From: Serratia grimesii NBRC 13537
GTDB lineage: Bacteria; Pseudomonadota; Gammaproteobacteria; Enterobacterales; Enterobacteriaceae
Assembly: GCF_001590905.1 (NCBI RefSeq)
Contig: NZ_BCTT01000011.1
Coordinates: forward strand, 62,001 to 126,000
Direction: 5' to 3'
DNA length: 64,000 bases
Numbering within the stretch: position 1 is the first letter of the stretch; every line of letters begins with the position of its first letter. The translations under genes and the position numbers were made by a program. Below, one piece after another: positions 2,276-64,000 of this stretch. The notes under the pieces were generated by a model that saw only the letters and a list, made by a program, of their open reading frames with translations, was not told the DNA's origin and searched no databases.

Positions 2276-2508
2276 TACTTTCGCCCCAGAGCCACCTGAA
2301 GTGCCTCCTTATCCAGCATGGCTTCGGCAAGCAGCTTCTTGAGTCTGGCATTCTCTTCCTCAAGCGACTTCAGGCGTTTAACCTCGGGCACCTCCATACC
2401 GCCATACTTCTTGCGCCAGGTGTAAAAGGTGGCGTCGGAAATGGCGTGCTTACGGCAGAGTTCACGGGCAGAAATCCCGGTTTCAGCCTCGCGGAGAATA
2501 CTGATGAT
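2272..2508 (-). pseudogene. IS3-family transposase orfA, 5'-truncated
   Basis: Frame reading IISILREAETGISARELCRK then an HTH and a C-terminal leucine-zipper-like run (LEEENARLKKLLAEAML), typical of IS3-family OrfA, the DNA-binding partner made alone or fused to OrfB by -1 frameshifting. Only 78 codons remain. The codon before the first Ile is TAG, and upstream of it the similarity ends without a start codon, so roughly the first dozen residues and the IS end are gone. The stop TGA at 2274-2272 overlaps the beginning of orfB, as is usual. Confidence 0.8.
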
Positions 2509-2578
2509 CTAGTAGGTAACGGTTTAATCATGCTTTTGTATTCATTTTCCTTTTTTGTCGTCTGGCTACACGGCAGTT

Positions 2579-2607
2579 TTCCCAATACCACCGATTGTCG
2601 GTATAAT
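2579..2607 (+). promoter_or_regulatory. Candidate sigma-70 promoter of dusA
   Basis: A perfect TATAAT -10 hexamer lies at 2602-2607, 65 bases before the dusA start, just beyond the IS remnant. The -35 region (TTCCCA, 17-base spacing) is poor. Confidence 0.45.
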
Positions 2608-2671
2608 AGCCGTTTGCGGCAGTACGCCGTTTGTTGAATCCCAGACAGAATCAGGTAGCCAGTAGCCCAGC

Positions 2672-3691: not shown

Positions 3692-3720
3692 AATTTGACT
3701 AAAAGTTAGTTTTTTTGACC

Positions 3721-3754
3721 AGGCATGTTGCGCGCTGTGACATGCCTTTTTTTT
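3721..3754 (+). terminator. Intrinsic terminator of dusA
   Basis: AGGCATGT at 3721-3728 pairs with ACATGCCT at 3740-3747, followed by seven T. Lies 30 bases after the dusA stop. Confidence 0.85.
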
Positions 3755-3785
3755 AATTTCAATCACTTAGTTCCGTCGTTGTTTC

Positions 3786-3801
3786 TGGCATGCTTTTTGT
3801 A
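3786..3801 (+). promoter_or_regulatory. Sigma-54 promoter of pspG
   Basis: TGGCATG (3786-3792), four bases, TTGTA (3797-3801): the -24 GG and -12 element of an RpoN promoter with the correct spacing, close to the consensus TGGCACG-N4-TTGCA. In E. coli pspG is driven by sigma-54 with the enhancer-binding protein PspF; the upstream enhancer site is not identified here. Confidence 0.8.
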
Positions 3802-3841
3802 ATAACTCAGCAGATACCTCGTTTTGCGAAGGAGCAAAATC

Positions 3842-4060
3842 ATGCTGGAACTCTTCTTTCTTATCGGTTTTGTCGTCATGCTGATGGTGACCGGGATTTC
3901 GCTGTTGGGCGTGTTCGCCGCGTTACTGGTGGCAGCGGCATTTATGTTGATTGGCGGTCTGTTTGCGATGGTGATTAAGCTGTTGCCGTGGCTGATTCTG
4001 GCTGTTGTGGGTGTGTGGATATACCGTTCGATGCAGAAACCACAAATCCGGCGTTATTGA
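3842..4060 (+). CDS. pspG: Phage shock protein G
   Basis: A 72-residue inner-membrane protein (E. coli PspG 80) with hydrophobic segments at about residues 3-40 and 43-60 and a basic tail. It belongs to the phage shock response that protects membrane potential under envelope stress. The ATG at 3842 is preferred over one at 3824 because AAGGAGC sits 7 bases upstream and the protein then begins MLELFFLIGF like its homologues. The gene is monocistronic: a sigma-54 promoter stands 40 bases upstream and a hairpin at 4151 follows. Position between dusA and qorA is as in E. coli. Confidence 0.93.
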   Translation: MLELFFLIGFVVMLMVTGISLLGVFAALLVAAAFMLIGGLFAMVIKLLPWLILAVVGVWIYRSMQKPQIRRY

Positions 4061-4150
4061 TTTTTTGTCGAATAATCAGTCGGTCACGCTGAAATATACG
4101 CAACAGACTTGCTCTGAATGCGGCAGCGATCACAGCTTGGTGCTTTAAAT

Positions 4151-4177
4151 GCTAATGCGCCGCATTAGCCATGTTTT
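4151..4177 (+). terminator. Terminator-like hairpin after pspG
   Basis: GCTAATGCG (4151-4159) and CGCATTAGC (4161-4169) form a 9-base perfect inverted repeat followed after four bases by six T. Confidence 0.6.
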
Positions 4178-4323
4178 TTGCGTTTCCGGGCTGTTAGGAT
4201 GTTTGTCGATGCAGCGATGCGACCTATTTCATCACCGCAAGAGACAGTAATACCAAATATGCGTGTTGCTCAAGCAACCCCTGTCTCTGGCGGACTCTGC
4301 TCTACCCCTACAAACGCAGTAAT

Positions 4324-4351
4324 AAAAAGGGCTCCTTACGGAGTCCTTTTT
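4324..4351. terminator. Intrinsic terminator of qorA, usable in both directions
   Basis: AAAAAGGGCTCC, loop TTAC, GGAGTCCTTTTT. A-run and T-run flank the stem, so it can stop transcripts of qorA (minus) and any plus-strand transcript from the pspG side. Confidence 0.8.
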
Positions 4352-4379
4352 ATTTGTCATAACGGCCCAGTGGGCGATC

Positions 4380-5369
4380 TCAACGCCCAGGAATCAGCAG
4401 GCTTGAACCGCTGGTGTTGCGGCTTTCCAGTACCTGATGCGCGCGCTGTGCGTCGGCCAATGCAAACTTCTGCTCTTCTTTAACGTCGACCTTGATGGCT
4501 CCGCTGCCGATCAGTGAGAACAGTTCATTACTGGCAAACTGCAGTTCAGCACGGTTGGTAATGTAGCCGTTAAGGGAAGGGCGGGTGACATACAGCGAAC
4601 CTTTTTGGTTAAGCAGCGCCAAATCGACACCGGTAACCGGGCCGGAGGCATTGCCGAAACTGACCATCAACCCACGTCGCTTCAGACTATTGAGCGAGCT
4701 CTGCCAGGTACTTTGCCCAACAGAGTCATACACCACACCGACTTTCTCCCCCTGCGTCAGTTCAGCCACGCGCTGGGCGATGTCTTCCTTATGGTAATTG
4801 ATGGTTGCCCACGCACCGGCACGTTTTGCCAGCTCGGCTTTGTCGTCGGAACCTACGCTGCCAATCAATTTTGCCCCAAGCGCTTTGGCCCATTGGCAGG
4901 CAATCAACCCGACGCCACCTGCGGCGGCATGGAACAGGAATATTTCACCTGGCTGTACTTCATGAGTTTGTCGCAAGAGATAGTGTACCGTCAGCCCTTT
5001 AAGGAAAGAGGCTGCGCCTTGCTCAAAGCTCAGGTTGTGCGGCAATATCGCCACTTTTTCAACCGCAACGTTGTGCACTTCACTATAGGCACCGAGTGAC
5101 GACTGAGCGTAAACCACCCGGTCACCGGGCTTCAGTGCGGTGACACCCGCACCGACCTTAATGACGACGCCGGCGGCTTCGGTACCCAATCCACTGGGCA
5201 GGGTGGCCGGTGGGTACAGCCCACTACGCACGTAGGTGTCGATATAGTTGATGCCGATCGCTTTGTTTTCGACCTGCACTTCGCCGGCGGTTGGGTCTAC
5301 GGGTGTAAAATCAACGTATTGCAACACTTCTGGGCCGCCGGTGGCGGAGAATTGAATGCGCTTTGCCAT
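4380..5369 (-). CDS. qorA: NADPH:quinone oxidoreductase QorA
   Basis: Cytosolic zinc-free member of the medium-chain dehydrogenase/reductase family that reduces quinones with NADPH. Length 329 residues against 327 in E. coli. The N-terminal GroES-like domain (VLQYVDFTPVDPTAGEVQVE, GLGTEAAGVVIKVG) is followed by a Rossmann domain with the nucleotide motif AAAGGVGLIACQWAKALGA at about residue 150. No zinc-binding cysteines are present, as expected. A GAGGT ribosome site lies 6-10 bases before the ATG at 5369. It is convergent with pspG and divergent from dnaB, as in E. coli. Confidence 0.95.
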   Translation of the reverse strand: MAKRIQFSATGGPEVLQYVDFTPVDPTAGEVQVENKAIGINYIDTYVRSGLYPPATLPSGLGTEAAGVVIKVGAGVTALKPGDRVVYAQSSLGAYSEVHNVAVEKVAILPHNLSFEQGAASFLKGLTVHYLLRQTHEVQPGEIFLFHAAAGGVGLIACQWAKALGAKLIGSVGSDDKAELAKRAGAWATINYHKEDIAQRVAELTQGEKVGVVYDSVGQSTWQSSLNSLKRRGLMVSFGNASGPVTGVDLALLNQKGSLYVTRPSLNGYITNRAELQFASNELFSLIGSGAIKVDVKEEQKFALADAQRAHQVLESRNTSGSSLLIPGR

Positions 5370-5549
5370 TTCATTACCTCGTGTGGGTGTCTCATTTCAC
5401 CCTACGCGTTTTAGTATCGGTGATCCAGTTTGCCCTTGCGCAGATTGATACCTTTTTTGCATCGGTTATGCCGCAGGAATCACAGATAAAAATCACGTAT
5501 ACTCTCGCGTCAGGATTCTCCATTCGCAACCGGATAAAGAATACGCTTC

Positions 5550-6974
5550 ATGGCAGGAAAAAAACCAACCAACAAAACAAACGCGGACGAAGCCAGAGAT
5601 CGTCCACGAGATCGCCAGATGGAAGGGCTGAAGATGCCGCCACATTCGCTGGAGGCGGAACAGTCCGTGTTGGGCGGTTTGATGCTGGATAACGAACGCT
5701 GGGACAACGTGGCGGAACGCGTTGTTGCCAACGACTTCTTCAGCCGCCCGCACCGTCTGATCTTTACCGAGATGCAGCGCCTGCTGGAAATGAGCCGGCC
5801 TATCGATCTGATCACGCTGTCCGAATCGCTGGAACAGCGGGGCGAGCTGGATTCTGTCGGTGGCTTCGCCTATTTGGCAGAGCTATCGAAAAATACCCCA
5901 AGTGCTGCCAACATTGGCGCTTATGCAGATATCGTACGCGAACGTGCGGTAGTGCGTGAGATGATCTCGGTGGCTAATGAGATTGCTGACGCCGGTTATG
6001 ATCCGCAAGGGCGCAGCAGTGAAGACTTGCTCGATCTGGCTGAATCACGTGTATTCCAAATTGCGGAAAATCGCGCCAGCAAAGATGAAGGCCCGAAAGG
6101 TATCGAACGCATCCTGGAGGATACGGTTGCACGCATTGAGCAGTTGTATCAGCAGCCGCATGATGGCGTTACCGGGGTGGATACCGGCTATCAGGATCTC
6201 AATAAGAAAACCGCAGGTTTGCAAAAGTCGGATCTGATCATCGTTGCCGCTCGTCCTTCGATGGGTAAAACCACCTTCGCCATGAACTTGTGCGAACACG
6301 CTGCGATGACGCAGGAAAAACCGGTACTGATCTTCAGCCTTGAAATGCCAGGCAACCAGATCATGATGCGTATGCTGGCGTCGCTGTCGCGCGTTGACCA
6401 AACACGTATCCGTACCGGCCAGCTTGATGACGAGGACTGGGCGCGTATTTCCAGCACCATGGGCATTTTGCTGGAGAAGCGCAATATGTACATTGATGAC
6501 TCCTCCGGCCTGACGCCAACCGAAGTACGTTCCCGTGCGCGTCGTATTTTCCGTGAGCATGATGGCCTTAGCCTGATCATGATTGACTACCTGCAGTTGA
6601 TGCGTGTGCCCTCTTTGTCCGACAACCGTACGCTGGAGATTGCTGAAATCTCCCGTTCACTGAAAGCGTTGGCGAAAGAGCTGCAAGTGCCTGTGGTGGC
6701 GCTGTCGCAGTTGAACCGAAGCCTGGAGCAGCGTGCCGACAAACGTCCGGTCAACTCCGACCTGCGTGAGTCTGGCTCCATCGAGCAGGATGCCGACCTG
6801 ATTATGTTCATCTACCGTGATGAGGTTTATCACGAGAACAGCGATCTGAAAGGGATTGCCGAAATTATTTTAGGTAAGCAACGTAACGGCCCAATCGGTT
6901 CCGTGCGCCTGACCTTTAACGGCCAGTGGTCGCGTTTCGATAACTACGCGGGGCCACAATATGATGACGAATAA
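5550..6974 (+). CDS. dnaB: Replicative DNA helicase DnaB
   Basis: Hexameric 5'-3' helicase that unwinds DNA at the replication fork and recruits primase. 474 residues (E. coli 471). The N-terminal primase-interacting domain starts at SLEAEQSVLGG (about residue 33); the RecA-like motor has Walker A ARPSMGKTT at 234-242, Walker B LSLIMIDYLQLM and the arginine-finger region near the C-terminus. It is divergent from qorA and followed 17 bases later by alr. The ATG at 5550 gives the basic leader MAGKKPTNKTN seen in enteric homologues. Confidence 0.98.
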   Translation: MAGKKPTNKTNADEARDRPRDRQMEGLKMPPHSLEAEQSVLGGLMLDNERWDNVAERVVANDFFSRPHRLIFTEMQRLLEMSRPIDLITLSESLEQRGELDSVGGFAYLAELSKNTPSAANIGAYADIVRERAVVREMISVANEIADAGYDPQGRSSEDLLDLAESRVFQIAENRASKDEGPKGIERILEDTVARIEQLYQQPHDGVTGVDTGYQDLNKKTAGLQKSDLIIVAARPSMGKTTFAMNLCEHAAMTQEKPVLIFSLEMPGNQIMMRMLASLSRVDQTRIRTGQLDDEDWARISSTMGILLEKRNMYIDDSSGLTPTEVRSRARRIFREHDGLSLIMIDYLQLMRVPSLSDNRTLEIAEISRSLKALAKELQVPVVALSQLNRSLEQRADKRPVNSDLRESGSIEQDADLIMFIYRDEVYHENSDLKGIAEIILGKQRNGPIGSVRLTFNGQWSRFDNYAGPQYDDE

Positions 6975-6991
6975 TCAGCTAAGGAACTGAA

Positions 6992-8071
6992 ATGAAAGCG
7001 GCAACCGCTGTAATCGACCGCCGCGCTCTGCGACATAATCTGCAACAGGTGCGCCGCCAGGCGCCACAAAGCCGCCTGATTGCCGTTGTGAAAGCAAACG
7101 CTTATGGACATGGCCTGCTGGAAACAGCGCACACCCTGCAAGATGCCGACTGCTATGGCGTGGCACGCATTGGCGAAGCGCTGATGCTGCGTTCTGGTGG
7201 CATCGTCAAACCCATCCTGATGTTGGAAGGCTTCTTCTCCGCCGAAGATCTGCCGGTGTTAGTGGCCAATAACATTGAAACTGCCGTGCATAGTATTGAA
7301 CAGCTTGAAGCACTGGAGCAGGCCACGCTGTCACGTCCGGTGCCGGTGTGGATGAAGTTGGACACCGGCATGCATCGCCTGGGCGTACGCCCGGAGCAGG
7401 CTGAGGCCTTCTATCAGCGTTTGAGTGCCTGCCGTAACGTCGTACAGCCGGTCAATATCATGAGTCACTTCAGCCGCGCCGATGAACCTGAATCCGACAC
7501 GACGCTGAAGCAAATGCAGTGTTTTGAGAACTTTGCCCGTGGCAAGCCGGGCCAGCGTTCGATCGCTGCCTCTGGTGGTACTCTGCTGTGGCCGGATGCA
7601 CACAATGAATGGGTTCGTCCGGGTATTATCCTATACGGTGTTTCGCCGATGGAAGGTTCTAATGGCTGTCAGTTCGATCTGCAACCAGCCATGACGCTGA
7701 AATCGAACCTGATTGCGGTACGTGAGCACAAGGCCGGTGAATCTGTAGGTTACGGCGGCACCTGGGTGAGTGAAGGGGATACCCGCTTGGGCGTGGTGGC
7801 GATGGGCTATGGCGACGGCTATCCGCGCAGTGCACCTTCCGGCACCCCTGTGTGGCTCAACGGTCGTGAAGTCCCCATAGTCGGTCGCGTGTCGATGGAC
7901 ATGATGTCGGTCGATCTGGGGCCTGATGCGACGGATAAGGTTGGCGATGAAGTGGTGTTGTGGGGGAAAGCGTTGCCCGTTGAACGCATTGCAGCCTGCA
8001 CCGGCATCAGCGCTTATGAACTGATTACCAAGCTGACACAGCGTGTAGCGATGGAATATATCGGCGAATAG
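6992..8071 (+). CDS. alr: Alanine racemase, biosynthetic
   Basis: PLP enzyme interconverting L- and D-alanine, supplying D-Ala for peptidoglycan. 359 residues, the same as E. coli Alr. The PLP lysine is K34 in [11 protein letters not shown] and the second catalytic base is Tyr254 in [10 protein letters not shown]; the C-terminal beta domain contains [11 protein letters not shown]. It starts 17 bases after dnaB with AAGGA as ribosome site, so it is probably cotranscribed. In E. coli tyrB follows directly; here two extra genes intervene. Confidence 0.98.
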
Positions 8072-8118
8072 CTTCTCGTGGGGCCAGCAACCATGTGCTG
8101 GCCCTGATCATGTTCGTG

Positions 8119-8886
8119 TTACTTCTTTACTGCCAACCATTGATCGATAATGCTTTGATACTCACCGGTCGCTTTGGCCAGGTGCAGCCACTGATCCACA
8201 TACAATTTCCAACTCAAATCATCACGCGGCAGCATGTAGGCTTTTTCGCCGTATTGCATCGGTTTGTTCGGGTTTACCGCACACAGCTTCGGATAGCGTT
8301 TTTGCTGATATAACGCTTCGGAAGCGTCGGTGATCATCACATCGGCTTTCTTGTCGACTAACTGCTGGAAAATTCCCACATTATCATGGGTTAGCGTCAG
8401 CTTGGCTTTGGGCAGATAGGCGTGAACGAAGGCTTCGTTGGTGCCACCCGCCGGTTCAAGCAGGCGTACCGACGGTTTATTGATCTGGTCGATGGTGCGG
8501 TATTTCTTCACGTCGGTGCAGCGCACTAACGGGATTTTGCCGTCCGTATCCAGCTTATCGGCAAAGAACACTTGCCTCTGTCGTTGCAGCGTGACGGAGA
8601 TCCCGCCCATAGCGATGTCGCACTTACCGGCGACAAAATCAGGCGTCAGGGTTTTCCAACTGGTTTTCACCCATTTCACTTTGGCTCCCAGGCTCTTTGC
8701 CAGCGATTCCGCCATAGTGATATCAATACCTTCATAGCTGCCGTCTTCTTTCAGGAAGGTATAGGGCTTGTAATCGCCAGTCGTGCACACTTCCAACGTG
8801 CCCTGTTGAATAACCTTATCCAGGTGTGATTGGGCGCTGGCGCTCCCGGCGGCAACCAGCAGTGCGAGAGGTAATAGCTTTTTCAT
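8119..8886 (-). CDS. pheC: Periplasmic cyclohexadienyl dehydratase-like protein (PheC family)
   Basis: 255 residues with a signal peptide (MKKLLPLALLVAAGSASA, cut before QSH) and the fold of a type-2 solute-binding protein. Sequence features match Pseudomonas aeruginosa PheC: TTGDYKPYTF, DIAMGGISVTLQRQRQ, PAGGTNEAF, a TDASEA segment carrying the catalytic-type glutamate, LCAVNP and EKAYMLPRDD. PheC decarboxylates and dehydrates prephenate or arogenate to phenylpyruvate or phenylalanine in the periplasm. A plain amino-acid-binding protein of an ABC transporter is the alternative, but no permease genes are adjacent. It sits between alr and an Lrp-type regulator with tyrB beyond, which suits aromatic amino-acid metabolism. 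Confidence 0.75.
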   Translation of the reverse strand: MKKLLPLALLVAAGSASAQSHLDKVIQQGTLEVCTTGDYKPYTFLKEDGSYEGIDITMAESLAKSLGAKVKWVKTSWKTLTPDFVAGKCDIAMGGISVTLQRQRQVFFADKLDTDGKIPLVRCTDVKKYRTIDQINKPSVRLLEPAGGTNEAFVHAYLPKAKLTLTHDNVGIFQQLVDKKADVMITDASEALYQQKRYPKLCAVNPNKPMQYGEKAYMLPRDDLSWKLYVDQWLHLAKATGEYQSIIDQWLAVKK

Positions 8887-9100
8887 CGGCGTCCTTTTTA
8901 TACATTCGTGGTTTTATGCGCTATTTAGCCGTTAATTGTTGCTGACTTGCGCGAGTTACCCACTTTTTATGCCATGAGTTGGTGGAAACGTTCGGCATTG
9001 CTGCTGTGCGCTTCACAACCTCGGCGGGGGAAGGGTATCCACAGTCAAAAAACTGATAGGCTGTAACGTCAACATTTATTAACACAGTTTACAGGTGGCT

Positions 9101-9568
9101 ATGTACAACATTGACGATTTTGATATGAAAATCCTGACGCTGTTACAGGCCAATGGCCGTCTGACCAATCAGGAACTGAGCGAACTGGTTGGGCTGTCTG
9201 CTTCCCAGTGTTCACGGCGGCGCATCAGCCTGGAGCAGGCGCAATTGATCCGTGGTTATCACGCACGGTTGGCACCAGAGGCGGTCGGACTGGGGCTTGT
9301 AGGGCTGATTGAAGTAAGCCTAACCCAGCACGGGCAGGAGCAAATTGACAGTTTCCATCAGATGCTGGAAGAAGTGGACGCCATTCTTGACGCCTATAAA
9401 ACCACTGGCGATGCTGATTATCTGCTGAAAGTCGCCGTAGCGGACCTGCCGGCGCTGGACGATTTCATCAGCCAGACGCTGTCTCGGCATAAAAGTGTGG
9501 CACATATCAAAACGGCGGTAGTGCTCAACCGTATCAAGGAAAACGGTTTGTTGCCTGTTGCGAGATAA
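9101..9568 (+). CDS. Lrp/AsnC family transcriptional regulator
   Basis: 155 residues: N-terminal winged helix-turn-helix (DMKILTLLQANGRLTNQELS, ELVGLSASQCSRR) and a C-terminal RAM ligand domain (GDADYLLKVAVADLPALDDF). Members bind DNA as dimers to octamers and respond to amino acids. ATG 9101 is chosen with AGG five bases upstream; GTG at 9095 in the same frame would add two residues but would overlap that ribosome site. It is divergent from the pheC-like gene and 83 bases before tyrB, so it may control one or both. The effector cannot be deduced. Confidence 0.9.
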   Translation: MYNIDDFDMKILTLLQANGRLTNQELSELVGLSASQCSRRRISLEQAQLIRGYHARLAPEAVGLGLVGLIEVSLTQHGQEQIDSFHQMLEEVDAILDAYKTTGDADYLLKVAVADLPALDDFISQTLSRHKSVAHIKTAVVLNRIKENGLLPVAR

Positions 9569-9651
9569 AGCTAAAACCGATCGCCGTTTTCCGTCTATAT
9601 TAGAGCGTAATACTGTGCCCCCGAACCCTAATAATCCAGGAGAACAACCCC

Positions 9652-10845
9652 GTGTTTCAGAACGTTGATGCCTATGCAGGTGACCCGATCCTGTCGCTGA
9701 TGGAAAAATTCAAAAAAGATCCCCGTTCGCACAAGGTTAACCTGAGTATCGGCCTTTACTATGACGAGCAGGGCATTATCCCGCAGATGAAAGCAGTTGC
9801 CGCAGCTGAAACGCAGTTGAACGCGGTGGATCAGGGCGCATCGGTGTATCTGCCGATGGAAGGCCTGCACCCTTACCGTACTGCGATTCAACATTTGCTG
9901 TTTGGTGCTGAGCACCCGATGTTGCAACAAGGCCGTATAGCCACCATTCAGACCGTGGGCGGTTCTGGCGCGCTGAAAGTCGGCGCCGACTTCCTGAAAA
10001 GCTACTTCCCGGATTCGCAGGTGTGGGTCAGCGATCCGACCTGGGAAAACCACATTGCTATCTTTGGTGGTGCCGGTTTTAAAGTGAACACCTATCCGTA
10101 CTTCGACAACGAAAGCTTGGGTGTGAAATTTGACGCCATGCTGAGCGCGTTGAAACAACTGCCAAAACACAGTATTGCGCTGTTGCACCCATGCTGCCAT
10201 AACCCGACGGGCTCTGATCTGACAAATGCCCAGTGGGATGACGTGGTCAAAGTGATCGCCGAACGTGAGTTGATTCCGTTCCTCGATATCGCCTATCAGG
10301 GCTTTGGCGGCGGGATTGCCGATGACGCCTATGCCATCCGCACTATCGCCGCGGCCGGTCTGCCGTGCCTGGTGAGCAATTCGTTCTCGAAAATCTTCTC
10401 GCTGTACGGCGAACGCGTCGGCGGCCTGTCGGTGGTGTGCGAAAGCGAAGAAGCGGCCGGGCGCGTATTGGGCCAGTTAAAGGCTACGGTTCGCCGCAAC
10501 TACTCCAGCCCACCGAACTTCGGTGCGCAGGTGGTGGCGAAGGTACTGAACGATACGCAGCTGAAAGCCCAGTGGCTGGCAGAAGTTGAAACCATGCGCA
10601 CCCGCATCCTGGAGATGCGCAAAACGCTGGTGGAAGCGCTGAAAGTTGCTCTGCCGCAGCGTAACTTCGATTACCTGCTGGAACAGCGCGGTATGTTCAG
10701 CTACACCGGTTTCAGCGCAGCACAGGTCGATCGCCTGCGAGAAGAGTTCGGTGTGTACCTGATTCACAGCGGCCGTGTCTGCATGGCCGGCCTGAACCAT
10801 AACAACGTGCATCAGGTGGCCGAGGCGTTTGCCGCAGTGCAATAA
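9652..10845 (+). CDS. tyrB: Aromatic amino acid aminotransferase TyrB
   Basis: Transfers the amino group from glutamate to phenylpyruvate, 4-hydroxyphenylpyruvate and 2-ketoisocaproate, the last step of Tyr, Phe and Leu synthesis. 397 residues, as in E. coli. Class I fold type I aminotransferase with PLP lysine K247 in [30 protein letters not shown] and the substrate-binding arginine in [11 protein letters not shown]. Translation starts at GTG 9652 with AGGAGA nine bases upstream. A strong intrinsic terminator at 10871 ends the transcript. AspC is a close paralogue, but position after alr supports TyrB. Confidence 0.95.
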
Positions 10846-10870
10846 TGTTGTTAGGGTTTGACGTTCGCAA

Positions 10871-10899
10871 GGGAGCGATAGCGATATCGCTCCCTTTTT
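10871..10899 (+). terminator. Intrinsic terminator of tyrB
   Basis: GGGAGCGAT (10871-10879) pairs with ATCGCTCCC (10886-10894), followed by five T. Confidence 0.9.
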
Positions 10900-10967
10900 G
10901 TTGTCGGTTTGCCGCCGGGGTTGCCGCAAACTGGATAGAGAATATACTGATTGAGGGGCGCTCACTC

Positions 10968-11384
10968 ATGTGGCATCAGCAAACGCTAATCCTCAGCGCA
11001 AAAGCGCGTGGTTTTCATCTGGTTACTGAAGAAATTACCGACCAGCTAACCCACTTACACCGCCTGCAAACTGGCCTGCTGCATCTGTTGTTGCAGCATA
11101 CCTCGGCTTCGCTGACGCTGAATGAGAACTGTGATCCTACGGTGCGAGCCGATATGGAGCAGCATTTCCTGCGTCAGGTGCCAGAGAACGCACCCTATCA
11201 ACATGACTATGAAGGGCCGGACGACATGCCGGCGCACATCAAATCCTCTCTGTTGGGCACGTCCTTGACGCTGCCTGTCGGTCACGGGCGACTGATGCTG
11301 GGCACATGGCAAGGAATTTGGCTGGGGGAGCACCGCATCCACGGCGGTTCACGCCGGATTGTGGCCACTTTACAGGGGGAATAA
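10968..11384 (+). CDS. yjbQ: YjbQ/UPF0047 family protein
   Basis: 138 residues, equal to E. coli YjbQ. The family signature is [18 protein letters not shown] and, further on, the [19 protein letters not shown] block. YjbQ proteins have weak thiamin-phosphate synthase activity in complementation tests; the physiological role is uncertain. The ATG at 10968 with GAGGGG upstream is chosen over upstream frames that overlap the tyrB terminator. yjbR starts five bases after its stop, so the two form an operon, as in E. coli. Confidence 0.93.
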
Positions 11385-11388
11385 CCCA

Positions 11389-11742
11389 ATGAATAACGCA
11401 GCACTGCTGGAATACTGCATGGCGAAGCCGGGCGCTGAACAGAGCGACCAGAACCAGTGGCAGGCAAGTCAGATTAAGGTCGGCGACGTGATGTTCGCTA
11501 TGGTGTGCGAGGTGCAGGGGCGTCCGGCGCTGGCGGTAAAATCCAGCCCGGAACTGGCGGAGAGCCTGCGGGAACACCATCCAGAGATTGTTGCCTGCGA
11601 GCGGCTGAACAAGGCTCACTGGAATACCGTGTTTCTCGACGGTAACCTGCCGAACTCCCAGTTCTATAGCTTGATCGACAGCTCGTATCAACTTGTGCTG
11701 CAAGGGTTACCTGATCACGTGCGTCAAGAGCTGCGCGCTTAA
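11389..11742 (+). CDS. yjbR: YjbR family (MmcQ/YjbR) protein
   Basis: 117 residues, in the length range of E. coli YjbR. Typical motifs are the CMAKPGAEQ start, FAMVCEVQGRPALAVKSSPE, HWNTVFLDGNLPNSQFYSLID and a C-terminal SYQLVLQGLP. The fold is a CyaY-like or double-wing type and DNA binding has been proposed, but no function is established. Overlapped ribosome site GGGGGA lies at the end of yjbQ. A hairpin with T-rich tail follows at 11751. Confidence 0.92.
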   Translation: MNNAALLEYCMAKPGAEQSDQNQWQASQIKVGDVMFAMVCEVQGRPALAVKSSPELAESLREHHPEIVACERLNKAHWNTVFLDGNLPNSQFYSLIDSSYQLVLQGLPDHVRQELRA

Positions 11743-11750
11743 ATCTCGAG

Positions 11751-11777
11751 GGCAGGTACGCACCTGCCTTCTTCGTT
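11751..11777 (+). terminator. Probable terminator of yjbQR
   Basis: GGCAGGT (11751-11757), loop ACGC, ACCTGCC (11762-11768), then TTCTTCGTTTTC. The T-run is interrupted. Confidence 0.6.
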
Positions 11778-11827
11778 TTCTCATTCTCTGTAGTTTATCT
11801 TCCAAACTGTGAACTCAATTTGGTTTT

Positions 11828-11886
11828 GGGAACGTTCCCTTTTTAATGTTTGATTGAAACGACTAGGCTTATTTAATCAATAAGCC
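11828..11886. promoter_or_regulatory. Two inverted repeats in the maa leader
   Basis: A perfect 12-base palindrome GGGAACGTTCCC (11828-11839) and GGCTTAT-N7-ATAAGCC (11866-11872 with 11880-11886) stand 70 and 24 bases before maa. They may be operators or, for the second, an RNA hairpin near the ribosome site. No regulator is assigned. Confidence 0.35.
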
Positions 11887-11909
11887 GTAAGACGAAAGGA
11901 TGTCATGAC

Positions 11910-12467
11910 ATGGCCATGAGTGAAGAAAAACGCAAGATGATTGCCGGTGAATTGTATGACGCCGGTGATGAGTTACTCCGCAGCGAGCGCAAGCGTGCAC
12001 GTCAGTTGGTACACCATTACAACCACTCGTCTCCGGATGAGGGAGGATTACGTAAACAATGGCTGGCGGAACTTCTGGGTCATTATCAGGGGGGAACCAT
12101 CGAACCGACGTTTCGCTGCGATTACGGCTATAACATTTATCTGGGCAAAAATTTCTACGCTAATTTTGATTGCGTGATCCTCGATGTGTGCGAAGTGCAT
12201 ATTGGTGATAACTGCATGTTGGCACCGGGCGTCCATATTTACACCGCTACCCATCCTCTGGATGCAGAAACACGTGTCGGCGGGGCAGAGTTTGGCAAAC
12301 CGGTACGCATTGGTGATAACGTGTGGATCGGCGGTCGCGCGGTGATAAATCCGGGTGTTACGCTGGGGGATAACGTGGTGGTGGCATCCGGTGCGGTAGT
12401 GACTAAAGATGTGCCAGCCAACTGCGTGGTCGGTGGCAACCCGGCACGAATCATTAAACAACTGTAA
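11910..12467 (+). CDS. maa: Maltose O-acetyltransferase Maa
   Basis: Cytosolic trimeric acetyltransferase that moves acetyl from acetyl-CoA to the C6 hydroxyl of maltose, glucose and related sugars. 185 residues. The N-terminal Mac domain ([18 protein letters not shown]) precedes a left-handed beta-helix of hexapeptide repeats (IHIGDN-type coils, [32 protein letters not shown]). The catalytic histidine lies in [12 protein letters not shown] 11910 and ATG 11916 are both possible. The gene is absent from this place in E. coli, so it and the following dehydrogenase are an insertion between yjbR and uvrA. Confidence 0.92.
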
Positions 12468-12469
12468 GA

Positions 12470-12495
12470 AAAACCGGGCGCCGCCATGGGCGCCC
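12470..12495 (-). terminator. Intrinsic terminator of the alcohol dehydrogenase gene
   Basis: On the minus strand GGGCGCC, loop, GGCGCCC, then GGTTTTTC. It lies between the convergent ends of maa and the dehydrogenase. Confidence 0.7.
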
Positions 12496-12502
12496 GCAGT
12501 GC

Positions 12503-13555
12503 TTAGGCTCGTAGTGAATTGATGTCTACCACGAAACGGTATTTCACGTCACTTTTCAGCATCCGTTCGAAGGCCTGGTTGATGTGCTGCATCGGGATCA
12601 GTTCAATATCTGAGGTAATGCCATGTTGGCCGCAAAAATCCAGCATTTCCTGGGTTTCGGCAATGCCGCCGATCAGCGAACCGGCGATGCGGCGGCGTTT
12701 CATGATCAGGTTGAACACTTGCGGTGACGGGTGATCGTGTTCCGGTGCGCCGACCAGCGTCAACGTACCGTCACGGCGCAGTAGGTTGAGGAATGGGTTC
12801 AGATCGTGCTGTGCCGCCACGGTGTTAAGAATAAAGTCGAAACTGTTCGTGTGTTGCGCCATCTCGTCCGGGTTACGCGAGATCACCACTTCATGAGCGC
12901 CGAGGCGTTTGGCGTCCTCGACTTTAGATGTTGAGGTGGTGAACAGCACCACATGTGCCCCCATCGCACGGGCTAATTTGACGCCCATATGCCCCAAACC
13001 ACCGAGACCGACGATGCCCACCTTTTTACCCGGCCCGGCGCCCCATTGGCGCAGTGGTGAATAGGTGGTGATACCCGCACACAGTAACGGCGCTACACCG
13101 GCTGGATCGAGGTTTTCCGGTACGCGTAGCACGAAGTCCTGATCAACCACCATGTCGGTTGAGTAGCCGCCGTAGGTGATAGCTCCGGTTTGTCGATCCT
13201 GGCCGTTATAGGTGCCCGTAAAGCCGTTTTCACAGTATTGCTCTAACCCTTCGTCACAGCTTGGGCAACTGCGACAAGAGTCGACCATACAACCGACCCC
13301 GACTAAATCGCCGATCTGATAACGTGAAACGTGGCTGCCGACGGCGCTTACACGCCCCACGATTTCGTGGCCGGGTACTACCGGGAAAATGGTATTGGTC
13401 CATTCGTTGCGGGCCTGATGCAAATCAGAATGGCAGACGCCACAGAACAGAACGTTGATTTGCACATCGTGTTCGCGCAGGGCGCGCGGTGTGTAATCAA
13501 AAGGAACTAGCGCTGACGTGGCGTCGTGCGCGGCATAGGCGTGCGTAATGTTCAT
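12503..13555 (-). CDS. Zinc-dependent alcohol/aldehyde reductase (YahK/CAD-like)
   Basis: 350 residues, close to E. coli YahK (349). Medium-chain dehydrogenase with catalytic zinc ligands in CGVCHSDLH, GHEIVG and the structural-zinc cysteines in CMVDSCRSCPSCDEGLEQYC. The Rossmann motif is GIVGLGGLGHMGVKLARAMG. Such enzymes reduce aldehydes with NADPH, with broad substrate range. ATG 13555 is chosen with TGGAG upstream and because homologues start here; a longer frame to 13723 adds unrelated residues. It is convergent with maa. The true substrate is unknown. Confidence 0.9.
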   Translation of the reverse strand: MNITHAYAAHDATSALVPFDYTPRALREHDVQINVLFCGVCHSDLHQARNEWTNTIFPVVPGHEIVGRVSAVGSHVSRYQIGDLVGVGCMVDSCRSCPSCDEGLEQYCENGFTGTYNGQDRQTGAITYGGYSTDMVVDQDFVLRVPENLDPAGVAPLLCAGITTYSPLRQWGAGPGKKVGIVGLGGLGHMGVKLARAMGAHVVLFTTSTSKVEDAKRLGAHEVVISRNPDEMAQHTNSFDFILNTVAAQHDLNPFLNLLRRDGTLTLVGAPEHDHPSPQVFNLIMKRRRIAGSLIGGIAETQEMLDFCGQHGITSDIELIPMQHINQAFERMLKSDVKYRFVVDINSLRA

Positions 13556-13745
13556 GGTAACTCCAGTCATCAATGAGTAGGGGGAAACGGCTTCCGGCAG
13601 TGGGATGCCGGTGAGACGTGGCCTGAGTAGAGCAAGGGGCCACAGAGGGAACATTGATGATAAAAGCTGCGAGCAAGGAGGGAAATGCCTGAAAATGTCG
13701 AAATCTTGCCTGTTTCTGTTCAATTTGAGCGAAACAGATAATAGT

Positions 13746-13770
13746 GCGGGCCGTCACAGGGACGGCCCGC
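13746..13770 (-). terminator. Hairpin downstream of uvrA
   Basis: Ten-base perfect stem GCGGGCCGTC / GACGGCCCGC with a five-base loop, 11 bases after the uvrA stop. No T-run follows, so termination is uncertain. Confidence 0.45.
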
Positions 13771-13780
13771 CGGGCAGGGA

Positions 13781-16612
13781 TTACTTCTTCTTCAGTAATG
13801 GCTTGAGGAAGCGTGCGGTATGGGATGCTTCACAGTTGGCCACGGTTTCCGGCGTACCGGCAACCAGGATCTCACCGCCGCCGCTGCCGCCTTCCGGCCC
13901 CAGGTCGACAATCCAGTCCGCGGTTTTAATCACGTCCAGGTTGTGCTCAATCACCACAATGGTATTGCCCTGATCGCGCAGTTGATGCAGTACCGCCAGC
14001 AGTTGCTGAATATCGGCGAAGTGCAGACCGGTCGTCGGTTCATCCAGAATATACAGTGTTTGGCCGGTACCGCGTTTCGACAGCTCACGCGCCAGTTTGA
14101 CGCGCTGCGCCTCACCGCCAGACAGCGTGGTCGCTGATTGACCAAGGCGAATATACGACAGGCCGACTTCCATCAAGGTTTGCAGTTTGCGCGCCAGTGC
14201 AGGCACCGCGTCGAAGAAATCACGCGCTTCTTCGATGGTCATCTCCAGCACTTCGTGGATGCTTTTGCCTTTGTACTTCACTTCCAGTGTTTCACGGTTA
14301 TAGCGTTTGCCTTTGCACTGGTCGCACGGCACATAAATATCCGGCAGAAAGTGCATTTCGACCTTGATCACACCATCGCCCTGGCAGGCTTCGCAGCGGC
14401 CACCTTTGACGTTAAAACTGAAACGGCCCGGGTTGTAGCCACGGCTGCGTGATTCCGGCACGCCGGCGAACAGCTCACGCACCGGGGTAAAGATACCGGT
14501 GTAGGTTGCCGGGTTGGAACGTGGGGTACGACCGATCGGGCTTTGATCGATATCGATGACCTTGTCGAAATGCTCCAGACCGTTGACCTCACGGAAGGGG
14601 GCCGGTTCGGCAATGGTAGCTCCGTTGAGTTGACGCTGGGCGATCGGGAACAGCGTGTCATTGATCAGCGTTGATTTGCCCGAGCCAGAAACCCCGGTAA
14701 TGCAAGTAAACAGTCCCACTGGCAGTGTCAGCGTCACGTCTTTCAGGTTGTTGCCACGTGCGCCGCTCAGCTTCAGCACCTTGGTTGGATCGGCGGGGAC
14801 GCGTTGTTCTGGAATAGCAATCTCACGTTTGCCGCTGAGGAACTGGCCGGTCAGTGATTCCGGCTGTGCCATGATGTCTTCGACAGTGCCTTCCGCCACT
14901 ACCTGACCACCGTGCACACCGGCACCGGGGCCGATATCGATCACGTGATCCGCAGCGCGGATGGCATCTTCGTCATGTTCTACCACGATCACTGTGTTAC
15001 CCAAGTTACGCAGGTGGATCAGGGTTTCTAACAGGCGCTCATTGTCGCGCTGATGCAGGCCAATCGACGGTTCATCCAACACGTACATGACACCCACCAG
15101 GCCGGCACCAATCTGGCTGGCCAGACGAATACGCTGTGCTTCACCACCGGACAGGGTTTCTGCTGAGCGTGACAGTGACAGGTAGTTCAGACCAACATTC
15201 ACCAGGAACTTCAGGCGATCACCAATTTCTTTCAGGACTTTCTCTGCGATTTGGGCACGTTGTCCGCTGAGCTTCATGTTCTGGAAGAAAGTCATTGCGT
15301 GACCGATGCTGAGATCGGAAATTTCCGGCAGCGTCGTGTCTTCAACGAACACGTTGCGTGCTTCTTCACGCAGACGAGTACCGTGGCACGAGGCGCAAGG
15401 ACGGTTGCTGATAAACTTCGCCAGCTCTTCACGTACTGCGCTCGATTCGGTCTCTTTATAGCGGCGTTCCATGTTGTGCAGCACGCCTTCGAACGGATGG
15501 CGGCGCACGGTGGTGTCACCGCGATCGTTAATGTATTTGAATTCGATCGACTCTTTGCCGGAGCCGCTGAGAACTGCTTTTTGCACGTCAGCGTCCAGGC
15601 TGTTGAAGGGGGCTTCAACGTCGAACGCGTAATGCTCAGCTAATGAACGCAGCATCTGGAAGTAATAGAAATTACGGCGATCCCAGCCGCGGATTGCACC
15701 ACCGGCCAGCGAAAGCTCGGGATTTTGCACCACGCGCTCAGGATCGAAGAACTGTTGTACACCCAGACCATCGCAGGTCGGGCAGGCACCGGCTGGGTTG
15801 TTGAACGAGAACAGACGGGGTTCCAGTTCACGCATGCTGTAACCGCAGATTGGGCAGGCAAAGTTGGCGGAGAACAACAGCTCATCCGCTTTTTCGTCGT
15901 CCATATCGGCGACCACCGCGGTACCGCCGGACAGCTCCAGTGCAGTCTCGAACGACTCTGCCAGGCGCTGGGACAGATCGTCACGTACCTTAAAGCGATC
16001 AACGACCACTTCGATGGTGTGTTTCTTCTGTAATTCCAGCTTCGGCGGATCGGACAGGTCACACACTTCACCGTCGATGCGCGCACGGATGTAGCCTTGG
16101 CTCGCCAGGTTTTCCAACGTTTTGGTGTGCTCACCCTTGCGGTCTTTCACCACCGGCGCCAGCAGCATCAAGCGTTTGCCTTCTGGCTGGTTGAGTACGT
16201 TGTCCACCATTTGGCTGACGGTTTGTGCCGCCAGCGGTACATGGTGATCCGGGCAGCGTGGTTCGCCGACGCGGGCAAATAACAGGCGCAGATAATCGTG
16301 GATCTCGGTGATGGTACCAACCGTAGAACGTGGGTTATGTGAGGTCGATTTCTGCTCGATGGAGATTGCCGGTGACAGACCTTCAATGTGGTCGACGTCC
16401 GGTTTTTCCATCAGCGAAAGGAACTGGCGTGCATAGGCGGAGAGCGATTCGACATAGCGACGCTGCCCTTCGGCATACAGAGTATCAAAGGCCAGCGAGG
16501 ACTTGCCTGAACCGGACAGGCCGGTGACGACGATCAGCTTGTCACGCGGGATAATCAGGTTGATGTTTTTGAGATTATGGGTTCGAGCACCACGAACTTC
16601 GATATTATCCAT
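13781..16612 (-). CDS. uvrA: Excinuclease ABC subunit UvrA
   Basis: DNA damage recognition ATPase of nucleotide excision repair; a UvrA dimer loads UvrB onto the lesion. 943 residues (E. coli 940). Two ABC modules: Walker [10 protein letters not shown] at 31-39 and GVSGSGKST near 640; signatures [14 protein letters not shown] and [14 protein letters not shown]; zinc modules CPICGYS and CEACQGDG with [11 protein letters not shown]. The UvrB-binding region between them is present. Divergent from ssb, with an LexA box in the shared upstream region, so it is SOS-induced. Confidence 0.98.
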
Positions 16613-59698: not shown

Positions 59699-59719
59699 AG
59701 GGGCCGGTTCACGGCCCCT
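59699..59719 (+). terminator. Hairpin after tldD
   Basis: AGGGGCCG (59699-59706), loop GTTCA, CGGCCCCT (59712-59719); only a distant TTTT follows. Confidence 0.5.
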
Positions 59720-59978
59720 ATCAGAATCCTGTTTTGTGGCACGCGTCGTATTAGCAGTAATTTTTCAGTTTAGTGGCAATTAAGAGCGATTCACTGTTTT
59801 TTCCTTTTTGTACAAATCAATAAGTTAAATTTAACTATTTCAAATAACTTTCTGCTGGTTGGTCTAGGAACATTCTTTTTTTGTTAGCCTGATTTAGTCA
59901 TCCGCTAATTATTTGCATCTTGTTACATTCTCCATCCCGTCGTTAAAATGCTGAAAAAACACACGGATGGTCTTCTGA

Positions 59979-60620
59979 ATGGATTCAGTTACTCAACGTC
60001 TCACGGCAGCTTTGCTGTGCATTTTCTTTTCCTCTGCCACCGGCGCTAACCTGCTGAGTCCGGCGGACCGCGACACTATCCAACAACAACAACGTGATTT
60101 ACTGGAGCAAAACCAGCTGCAGCGGCAGGAACTGCAACGCAGCCTGACGCCGACCTTGCCCGCAACCCCAATACCCAGCGCCAAAGTGGGTGGCCCTTGC
60201 TTCACCATCAACCGTATTCAACTGGAAGGCGCCGAGCATCTGCCTGCCAGTGCGCAACGCAAACTCACCCAGAATTACCTGCAACAATGCCTGGATCTGG
60301 GGCAAATCCAAACGCTGGTGCAGCAGGTTTCCGACTGGTACATCGGTCGTGGTTATATCACCAGCCGTGCATTCTTGACTGATCAGGATCTTTCGCGCGG
60401 CGAACTGCGGTTACTGGTGCTGGAAGGCCGTCTTGAGAAAATCCTGCTGGAGCAGCACCAAGATCGCATGCTGAAAATGGCTTTCCCTGGCTTGCAGGGG
60501 AACATCCTCAACCTGCGTGATATTGAGCAGGGCATGGAGCAGATCAACCGTCTGCGCCAGCAACCGGTGCAGATAGAAATCCTTCCCGGCAGCCAACCGG
60601 GCTACTGGTGGTCAATTTAA
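59979..60620 (+). pseudogene. cdiB: Truncated TpsB/CdiB outer-membrane transporter
   Basis: 213 residues. Signal peptide (1-23), a Gln-rich helix (QQQQRDLLEQNQLQRQELQR), POTRA1 (CFTINRIQLEGAEHLP to the RELRLLVLEGRLEKI region) and POTRA2 (MAFPGLQGNILNLRDIEQGM, NRLRQQPVQIEILPG). These are the periplasmic parts of the ShlB/FhaC/CdiB family that exports two-partner toxins. At 60600-60606 the frame breaks: the normal continuation (VVNLSAKPEFPL, GLGFDNS) lies one base out and stops after about 20 residues where CdiA sequence begins. Roughly the entire 16-strand barrel is missing, so export cannot work from this gene. Confidence 0.85.
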
Positions 60621-62554
60621 GCGCCAAACCCGAGTTTCCGCTGATGCTTGGGCTGGGGTTCGACAACAGCTGGCAGAAAGATGTTAGCGGTGGCGCGAGC
60701 TTTACTTTCGGGTCGATGAGCGGTTCTGCCTCGTTGAGTATGAGCCAGACTAAAATCGAGAGTGAATATGCCAGTGTGGGTGACCAAAGTGGTTTGTTTG
60801 CGGGAGATAAAGGCTTTGATATTAACGTTGGCAACCATACGCAACTGAATGGTGGGGTGATTGCTTCGACGGCTGACAGCATCAAAAATCAGCTCTCTAC
60901 CGGCTCGCTGGGTTGGGATGCCATTGATAATAAAGCGGAGTATAACGCCAGCAGCAGCGGTTTTGGTATTTCTACCAGTGGGCCAACCGGCGGCGGTCTC
61001 GCTAAGGAAAAAGGTAAGGCTGCCGGCACTACGCAGTCGGCAGTCGCCGCAGGCAATATTGATATCCGTAATACGGCAGCTCAGACACAAGATATCGCCG
61101 AACTAAGCCGCGATACGGACAATGCCAACGGACGTATCGATAAAATCTTCGATGAGGCGAAGGTGAAAGACAACTTGGCGTTTACCCAGGGAGTCACGCA
61201 GCTTGCGACGCAGTTGGTCAGCGATTATGGTAACAAGCAGATGCTACAGGCTCAGCGTGCCGCTGCGGAAAAACTGAGTAAGGATCCAGCCTACCTGAGT
61301 GCAAGTGCACAGGAACGCCAGAAAATGCTAGAGGCGTCGCCGGAGTATAAGGCGGCGCAGAAAGAGTACGGTATCGGCAGTAATTTCTGGGCTGCGGGGA
61401 CGGCTATCAGTGCGGCGCTGGCGGGAATTAGCGGCGGTGATATTGGCGCTGCGGCCGGTGGTGCGCTGGCACCGTATTTGGCACGGGAAATCAAAACCCG
61501 TACAGAAGGCAACACGGCAGCGAATGCGGCTGCACATGCGGTAGCCGGGGCATTGGTGGCATTGGTCTCGGGTAACAATGTGGCGTCGGGAGCTGCAGGC
61601 GCGGCAAGTGGGGAACTGGCTGCTAAAATTATCAGCGAACAGTATTATGGCAAGGATCCTTCAGCCCTGACGGAAGCAGAGAAGCAAAATGTCAGTGCGC
61701 TCAGCCAATTGGCGGCAGGGCTGGCAGGTGGATTGGTAGCGGACAGCACCGCAGGGGCCGTGGGCGGTAGCGTGGCCGGTAAGACGGCGGTGGAGAATAA
61801 CTTCCTCAGCGTAACTCAGCTTGATAACTTCGCGCAGAAATCCAGGACGTGTGAAGGTGCAGCCTGTCAGCAAGTGATTCAGGACATGGTAGAGACCAAC
61901 CTGAAACAGCAGAAGGAAATGCTGGCGTTCTGTAGCAGTCAGCCTGCTCAATGTGCGGATAAGTATGGTTATCTGGTTGAGCAGTGGGATGTGTTCGATC
62001 AAGCCATCAAGCAGTTGGACGCTGACGGCAAGCTACCTAACGAGTTCAAGAACTACCTGTCCGCAGTGTACAGTTCCAGTATGGAAGCCGAAGGGACAGT
62101 TGCCAATTTAGGGTGGCAACAGAAGTTCGAGGCGCTTGGACTGGACAAGGATACAGCGGCAGCAATGGCGGCTACCGTGCCTGCGCTGATTGCAGCGAAA
62201 GGACCGAAAGGAAGTGCAATACCTGTTCCTACTCCAACAAAAGCCAGCAATGGATTGGTTTATCAATCGAATTCCAAGCATACACTGGGTGGTGAAGGTA
62301 ACAGGCCTAATGCAGGTATTGAACCTAAAAACTCTCTAACCATTTTCGAAAACTCTGTACCTTTAGCAATAAAAGGCAGAGAACACAAAGCGCGATATGC
62401 GTTAGACAGCGATGGTAATGTACATAGATTTTCACCAGACAATACTGGTGGTTATCACTGGTCAGGAAGTACCGCCGACCAAAGAAATAAGCTAGAACTA
62501 CCAAATGACGTTAAAGCTGCCCTAAGAAAGCAAGAAGGATGGAAGTTAAAATGA
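60608..62554 (+). pseudogene. cdiA: CdiA C-terminal fragment fused behind cdiB sequence
   Basis: The open frame is 648 codons. Codons 1-20 are the start of the CdiB barrel (VVNLSAKPEFPLMLGLGFDN); from about codon 21 it is filamentous-hemagglutinin/CdiA sequence (SGGASFTFGSMSGSASLSMS, GLFAGDKGFDINVGNHTQLNG). Then come the pretoxin region (AGISGGDIGAAAGGALAPYL), the VENN motif at 395-398, an entry domain with Cys pairs to about 530, and the toxin tip (HTLGGEGNRPNAGIEPKNS, GGYHWSGST). The signal, transport domain and several kilobases of stalk are gone. There is no ribosome site at the GTG 60608, so independent expression is doubtful. The last 330 bases are AT-rich. Toxin activity is not assignable by eye. 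Confidence 0.82.
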
Positions 62555-63042
62555 TCATTGGAAATGCACTAGAGATAGCGATTCAGTTGGAATACATTAT
62601 CCCACTGAATTCACCAAGTGGCCTTTTTAATTTCATAATAGATGATGGCCTTATTCCAGGGAAAGGTACGGTAATAGATCTTTACATGGTGATATCGTCA
62701 CTCAAGGATAGTTTGGCTTACCATTTAAATTCAGGAATTCAAGATATTGGCGATATCAATTTAGAGAAGCTAGATTTCTCTGACGGAGCCCCAGAAAATA
62801 TAATCTGGCTGGACAGTGGTGAATTGTCTGACTATGGCTGTGTATTTTGGTTGGGATTTGATGGTGAGGAAGAAAGGTTTTTTTATTCAGTGGATTATGA
62901 AAAGACTATACAGGAGAAAAGGTATGCTCGAGGAACTATTGAGAAACTAATTAATAGTCTACCATCCCCTGAAAAGCTCAAAATAAAAAAAACTAACGAT
63001 ATAATATCCATTACAGATATTGATGATTCATATATAGTTTAG
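62551..63042 (+). CDS. cdiI: CDI immunity protein, Imm42-like
   Basis: 163 residues, acidic, no signal or membrane segment: a cytosolic antitoxin. The start MIIGN-ALEIAIQLEYI resembles the MIIGD-type opening of Imm42 immunity proteins; this family call is tentative. ATG 62551 is chosen because it overlaps the cdiA stop (ATGA) and has AAGGA about 14 bases upstream with GGAAG nearer; ATG 62539 would add four residues. Position directly behind a VENN-type toxin tip is the main evidence. The gene is AT-rich, unlike the upstream cdiA fragment. A strong terminator follows. Confidence 0.75.
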   Translation: MIIGNALEIAIQLEYIIPLNSPSGLFNFIIDDGLIPGKGTVIDLYMVISSLKDSLAYHLNSGIQDIGDINLEKLDFSDGAPENIIWLDSGELSDYGCVFWLGFDGEEERFFYSVDYEKTIQEKRYARGTIEKLINSLPSPEKLKIKKTNDIISITDIDDSYIV

Positions 63043-63053
63043 AGCTGATCGTT

Positions 63054-63080
63054 AACCCCGGCCAATTAGCCGGGGTTCTT
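63054..63080 (+). terminator. Intrinsic terminator of the cdi operon
   Basis: AACCCCGGC, loop CAATTA, GCCGGGGTT, then CTTACTT. It lies 11 bases after the immunity stop. Confidence 0.75.
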
Positions 63081-63251
63081 ACTTCTAAGCCCAAAATCCT
63101 CACACTTCCCACCGCTGCAACCGGAGCACACCGGGCGCAGCGGTCACTTCCAGTTGTTCAGCGTCGGTGATGCCCGAATCGGTCATCTAGTCGTGCCACA
63201 GAGCGCCGTTCCGGCGCTTGCGGGCACCGTCACAAAACCCGGAAAGCGGTA

Positions 63252-63875
63252 ATGGCAGCGGCTGACGCCGCTGCTATGATGTGGCGTTGGTGCTCTTTAA
63301 CAGCGTTGGGAAAATGGCGTAACGGGCTGAAGAATATCACCAGCGTTGATGCACAAAATCAGCAACAGATCCAAGACGCAATGATCAACTTCTTCATGAC
63401 AACCAAAGGAGTCGATTATGCAACAGCCAAAGATTATGCCGAGCTGAAGCAGGGTGCTGATATCTTTGTTGCTTCATTGACACCTGTATTGGGTGCCGCA
63501 GCAGCAAAACAACTGAGTAAGATTGTGGATGCGAATCTGAAAGTTGTCGCGAAAGGAAATGTTGATGGTAGCAAGTTCACTGATACAAATCAGGGAGTAA
63601 GACCGTCAAAATTAGCTGATTTTAACAAACCGACCTTAATCAATGACGTTGTACAGGCCAAAATAGATAAGCGTCCTGACAAAAATTATCCTAATGGAAA
63701 TATGGGTACTGCTCATGCAGAAATAGGTGTGATCCAACAGGCCTTTGATAAGGGGATGACCCAAGGGCGCGAAATGGCAATGAGTGTAGCAGGGAAAGAG
63801 GTCTGCAACTATTGCTTGAGTGATGTAAGGATCATGGCAGAAAAAGCAGGGCTTAAATCACTAACAATTTATTAA
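63252..63875 (+). CDS. Orphan CdiA-CT/toxin module, deaminase-like
   Basis: About 207 residues by an ATG start at 63252. From residue 26 (LKNITSVDAQNQQQIQDAM, KDYAELKQGADIF) it looks like the entry part of a polymorphic toxin; the C-terminal 75 residues carry GTAHAEIGVIQQAF and, 27 residues later, VCNYCLSDV. His-Ala-Glu plus Cys-x-x-Cys is the zinc site of the cytidine-deaminase superfamily, used by several CDI, T6SS and Rhs toxins against nucleic acids or nucleotides. No signal or secretion domain is attached, so it is a displaced toxin tip. The N-terminal 25 residues probably result from a frameshift. Possible immunity gene starts at 63944. Confidence 0.72.
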   Translation: MAAADAAAMMWRWCSLTALGKWRNGLKNITSVDAQNQQQIQDAMINFFMTTKGVDYATAKDYAELKQGADIFVASLTPVLGAAAAKQLSKIVDANLKVVAKGNVDGSKFTDTNQGVRPSKLADFNKPTLINDVVQAKIDKRPDKNYPNGNMGTAHAEIGVIQQAFDKGMTQGREMAMSVAGKEVCNYCLSDVRIMAEKAGLKSLTIY

Positions 63876-63943
63876 GAATCAACAGGTAACGTTCTGTTCT
63901 GGCAGCAGGGCATGAAAAAAATAGAAAATAAGGGGCCTGCAAA

Positions 63944-64000
63944 ATGATAATAAAATATGAGCTTTCTCGATTATGTTCAGGTGAGGAATATGTCAGAAAT
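63944..64000 (+). CDS. Start of a small gene, probable immunity protein (partial)
   Basis: ATG at 63944 opens 19 codons (MIIKYELSRLCSGEEYVRN) that run off the right edge, with AAGGGG nine bases upstream. It lies 68 bases after the deaminase-like toxin, the usual place of the matching immunity gene. Too short to assign a family. Confidence 0.4.
   Translation, partial: MIIKYELSRLCSGEEYVRN

Follow-up and report, generated by a model that had tools for sequence, protein, structure and literature searches.

Toward the end of the window (the 64,000-nucleotide stretch of Serratia grimesii NBRC 13537 DNA analyzed here), a shortened cdiB gene, the 3′ part of a cdiA gene, a putative immunity gene, and an orphan toxin/immunity module were found on the forward strand (Table 1). 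An initial search of 41 genomes (the strain's own and 40 relatives), with positions 59700 to 61100 as the query, returned some match in 17. The closest relative, Serratia proteamaculans UME734 (G012; contig NZ_SWDE01000004.1, locus extract L022), served as the yardstick, and the other relatives included a second S. proteamaculans genome (G008), Serratia inhibens (G002), and Serratia plymuthica (G019).

The cdiB remnant matched Pfam domains POTRA_2 (residues 75 to 150) and POTRA_3 (residues 151 to 203), in agreement with the initial annotation, in which the gene had been described as normal through both POTRA domains. The complete TpsB exporter of a functional CDI system was not found at this locus, since the frame with the POTRA domains ends at 213 amino acids (aa); the same cdiB encodes 557 aa in all eight relatives that have it (G012, G022, G011, G008, G014, G019, G002, and G043). 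An NCBIfam scan of the remnant produced one weak BamA match, far under the cutoff, and the three other frames scanned had no match. The cdiB frame departs after approximately residue 208 and reaches a stop at position 60620, whereas all seven aligned relatives stay in frame there, which confirms the single frameshift near position 60605 noted previously. Barrel-start sequence then runs on in another frame to about the motif FDNS and becomes cdiA sequence without a stop, also as described previously; this second frame is open from a GTG at position 60608 to position 62554 (648 aa), and its first ~20 residues are the start of the cdiB barrel. Nine promoter-like sites were counted between positions 59690 and 64000, compared to a mean of 4.8 in shuffled sequences.

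Table 1. Features of the decayed cdi locus and the adjoining orphan module (window coordinates)
Feature	Position	Strand	Basis
Sigma-70-like promoter match upstream of cdiB	59920..59949	+	Consensus match alone
cdiB 5′ remnant, 213-aa frame, two POTRA domains, without barrel	59979..60620	+	Frame list, Pfam, relatives
Frameshift site in cdiB	60598..60610	+	Window frame versus 7/7 relatives
Deletion join, imperfect 17-base repeat common to cdiB and cdiA	60663..60679	+	BLAST, base comparison
cdiA 3′ remnant	60671..62554	+	Frame list, BLAST
PT-VENN pretoxin domain	61658..61810	+	Pfam PF04829, E 2.1e-18
CdiA-CT, variable C-terminal region	61811..62554	+	Weak DUF6862 match at start, under cutoff
Putative immunity gene, Imm42 family	62539..63042	+	PF15593, 41.3 bits, cutoff 27.2, positions 1-57 of 162
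Terminator-like hairpin after immunity gene	63054..63077	+	9-pair stem, 7 G-C
Orphan cdiA-CT, Deam_C cytidine-deaminase-like domain	63252..63875	+	PF24241, E 9.5e-43
Orphan-module immunity gene start, putative	63944..64000 (continues to 64339 past window)	+	DUF6911, PF21852, E 3.6e-43

The retained cdiA sequence was 93.6% identical to that of UME734 at the amino acid level over 377 codons, and it contains the PT-VENN domain followed by a variable C-terminal toxin region that is found in functional CDI systems. From position 61813 onward, no DNA match to the cdiA of UME734 was found until the orphan module. The last 111 aa of the CdiA-CT matched no Pfam model and no PDB sequence at an E value of ≤1, and a CT with 52% identity was present in a 3,567-aa open frame of one (G013) of the 29 other genus genomes. 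An immunity gene directly after cdiA was recognized by sequence, in that the putative Imm42 frame overlaps the end of cdiA; no match to this protein was found among the other 29 genus genomes, and PADLOC gave one weak match to the frame (18 bits, 42 residues). The CT and the Imm42 frame are both open, in line with the earlier statement that the toxin tip and immunity gene had been retained. The TPS secretion domain (PF05860) was detected at two places in the genome, neither of which is in the decayed locus. Adjoining the terminator-like hairpin, a stretch at positions 63053 to 63193 that carries a broken reverse frame recurs over ~100 to 130 bases, at 77 to 80% identity, in the cdi regions of G008, G014, G019, and G002.

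Farther downstream, a Deam_C frame followed by a DUF6911 frame (positions 63252 to 64339) has the arrangement of an orphan cdiA-CT/cdiI module, and the same pair closes the intact cdiA of UME734. The VENN motif that is usual, but not universal, at the start of such modules was absent, the PF04829 matches of the genome being those at positions 61658 to 61810 and in a second locus described below. The orphan toxin frame closes 24 codons short of the matching cdiA end in UME734 (L022 position 12970), while positions 63332 to 64000 are 99.55% identical to that genome without a change in length. In 200-base bins, identity to UME734 was 97 to 100% from position 63400 to 66000 and 95.5 to 96.5% to position 66600; past this point it was 84 to 94%, save for one short bin at 97% and a last one-base bin. 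Identity in the cdiB and cdiA parts was 86 to 87%, and this difference points to recent exchange of the block containing the orphan deaminase module, as judged from sequence identity. The block, which spans 63332 to 66000 and so extends past the window (L037), also includes a gene whose HEAT-repeat match fell slightly under the cutoff.

Comparison of the upstream part of the locus with UME734 revealed a large gap. Two parts of the window align at positions 9 to 2183 and 10917 to 12066 of L022, 8.7 kb apart, in a locus that is intact, with cdiB at 1482 to 3155 (557 aa), cdiA at 3161 to 12970 (3,269 aa), and an immunity frame from 12967. Measured on this genome of another species, the missing piece amounts to ~8.73 kb. 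By the same yardstick, cdiA resumes at position 10917 of a gene spanning 3161 to 12970, so ~21% of it is kept, or about a fifth rather than the C-terminal third given in the initial annotation. The two-part alignment to intact loci confirmed the main observation of that annotation, a deletion fusion of cdiB to cdiA, and the 8.7 kb separating the parts in UME734 agrees with its proposal that many kilobases, including the barrel, the toxin signal, and most of the stalk, had been lost.

Intact cdiBAI counterparts were located at the same chromosomal place in related species. The adjacent cdiA is a single long frame in G012, G022, G011, G002, and G043 and runs off the contig end in G019. In G008 (L025) and G014 (L026), cdiA is split into two frames and cdiB is intact. 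Among 30 genus genomes, some match was found in 19, and one continuous match across the join was found only in the genome to which the window belongs. The possibility that the join is part of a normal gene common to many species was therefore rejected; its occurrence in many strains, which had been named as an observation that would count against a deletion, was not seen in the other 29 genus genomes scanned.

Alignment to the complete loci of relatives mapped both breakpoints to a short imperfect repeat. Window positions 59979 to 60679 align with the 5′ part of cdiB, and positions 60663 to 61812 align with the 3′ part of cdiA. Against UME734, the left BLAST match ends at window position 60679 and the right match begins at window position 60663, and the cdiB and cdiA copies of the 17-base repeat in UME734 agree at 12 of 17 positions. 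Across relatives, strong matches end at 60678 to 60679 on the cdiB side and begin at 60663 to 60666 on the cdiA side, at separate places. These match ends and a base-by-base comparison bore out the coordinates originally given for the join region. Up to position 60670, the window is identical at the join to cdiB of G012, G022, G011, and G014 (cdiB of G008, G019, and G002 has several third-position differences there), and from position 60666 it is identical to three of the five cdiA copies compared (the main copy of G008 and those of G019 and G002). The exact overlap, judged from these proxy relatives of several species, is the 5-base run ACAGC at positions 60666 to 60670; if G012 supplies both sides, the run falls to 4 bases, and within G008 it is shorter. 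Of the two short sequences earlier suggested to be shared at the breakpoints, AACAGC and CAGAAA, the first contains this 5-base run, while the second is not fully shared.

Among random junctions (two loci, 300,000 trials each), overlaps of at least 5 bases occurred in 0.7% and 0.9% and overlaps of at least 3 bases in 6%. The overlap at the join is thus above chance, though not strongly so, and gives moderate support to a deletion mediated by microhomology. Short identity at both breakpoints with one copy kept, as expected of such a deletion, was found at 4 to 5 exact bases by proxy. The join probably arose at the short imperfect repeat through illegitimate recombination of the microhomology type, and the resulting deletion, ~8.7 kb as measured on UME734, would have placed the last fifth of a cdiA directly after approximately codon 230 of cdiB.

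The draft state of the genome (40 contigs) and the location of the two parts on different contigs in G002 and G019, which shows that the locus is hard to assemble, would be compatible with an intact cdiBAI that was collapsed or misjoined during assembly. However, the join sits inside a 442,662-base contig, cdiB is also broken by a separate frameshift, and an assembler, with its much greater word length, should not be misled by an exact overlap of ~5 bases. In addition, a search of the strain's own genome with positions 2184 to 10916 of L022 returned two matches of 71 and 48 bases, located within the TPS-domain sequences of two further proteins. Apart from these matches, the assembly contains none of the missing 8.7 kb of cdi DNA, and an assembly artifact was judged extremely unlikely.

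In the cdiB remnant, over 207 codons, the ratio of nonsynonymous to synonymous divergence (dN/dS) was 0.10 to 0.13 against seven relatives, compared to 0.07 to 0.20 for pairs among relatives. For the cdiA remnant (373 to 377 codons), dN/dS was 0.04 to 0.05 against four relatives, compared to 0.06 to 0.11 for other pairs. No relaxation of constraint was seen in either half, a pattern that fits a recent break, though dN/dS cannot date one. Divergence from UME734 was unequal between the halves: dS was 0.27 in the cdiB part but 0.68 in the cdiA part, so the cdiA end has a history separate from that of the cdiB part.

The cdiA end may accordingly derive from an orphan module farther down, in which case the deletion was possibly longer and took more than one step. 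The form of this explanation in which the kept end is an orphan cdiA-CT module with upstream homology, the main toxin end having been deleted too, was considered unlikely. It would account for the unequal divergence, and in G002 the homologous end and cdiB lie on different contigs and the cdiA adjoining cdiB has another end. Parts of the stretch also recur past the end of the main cdiA of G008 (L025 positions 15019 to 15256 and 13532 to 13750), which makes the source of the kept end uncertain. On the other hand, the matching stretch in UME734 is part of the main cdiA frame, and homology that extends over 1,150 bases to the VENN region suits a main cdiA. An orphan-module origin would, moreover, alter a detail of the deletion but not the kind of event. 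Taken as a whole, the locus is very probably a decayed cdiBAI in which a deletion brought the last fifth of cdiA up against the start of cdiB, with a separate frameshift just upstream.

Two-partner secretion requires both a TpsB barrel and a TPS domain for the export of CdiA. Because both are missing here, the decayed locus would be unable to secrete CdiA. The toxin ends and immunity genes remain, and the latter may continue to give the cell protection. The barrel start and cdiA share one reading frame on the two sides of the join; the deletion alone would therefore yield a single chimera of the cdiB start, the POTRA pair, the pretoxin domain, and the toxin tip. It is very unlikely that the frameshift was a later, selected silencing of such a chimera as a harmful periplasmic toxin, leaving an immunity-only locus.

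Retention of the remnant by selection as an immunity-only locus, conferring resistance without delivery, is rather unlikely. Neither immunity frame is interrupted, whereas the orphan toxin frame falls 24 codons short of its UME734 counterpart, and the stretch with the orphan immunity gene is 98 to 99% identical to UME734 in 200-base bins. An orphan immunity gene of Escherichia coli EC93 is expressed and protective, according to Poole et al. (2011; PMC3150448). Recent decay accounts for the open frames equally well, however, and the first toxin end is likewise open; the break and the predicted terminator-like hairpin may also lower expression of the immunity genes. The remnant is most likely the nonsecreting product of an illegitimate deletion.

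The cdiBAI locus of UME734 resembles the present one in its chromosomal place (both flanks align), its cdiB family, the cdiA 3′ region up to VENN, and the deaminase module; it differs in that its cdiB and cdiA are intact and in that the deaminase end, an orphan in the window, serves there as the main toxin. The orphan cdiA-CT/cdiI modules described in PMC3150448 are likewise detached toxin ends with immunity genes behind a cdi locus, whereas in the window a cdiB remnant is fused to the first toxin end and the orphan deaminase end is without a PT-VENN match. The same paper describes a 3,557-bp deletion inside the cdi locus of Yersinia pestis Microtus 91001, which also created a new join; in that case an orphan toxin was loaded onto a full-length cdiA, whereas in the window the exporter barrel and secretion domain were removed. 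The present locus is a further instance of decay in a known kind of system.

A second CDI-type locus at C11:301365-313284 (L046 positions 1866 to 13785) contains a TpsB frame of 589 aa from the first start, an HlyC-family frame of 178 aa, and a CdiA of 3,198 aa with TPS and PT-VENN domains that shares 39.5% identity with the remnant across 415 aligned positions. From its sequence, this TpsB/HlyC-like acyltransferase/CdiA locus is apparently intact. A further POTRA_2 protein with a neighboring 1,620-aa TPS frame was found at C11:27247-29587. Given the second CDI-type locus, loss of the decayed one need not strip the strain of CDI. This locus, the orphan deaminase module, the smaller share of cdiA, and the possible orphan-module origin of the cdiA end go beyond the initial annotation.

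The locus reveals no new kind of system; it offers a clean and apparently recent illustration of a CDI system in which delivery has been lost while the immunity frames are still open, and the genome seems to retain another CDI-type locus in addition to the decayed one. The case could be used for asking whether immunity-only remnants protect.
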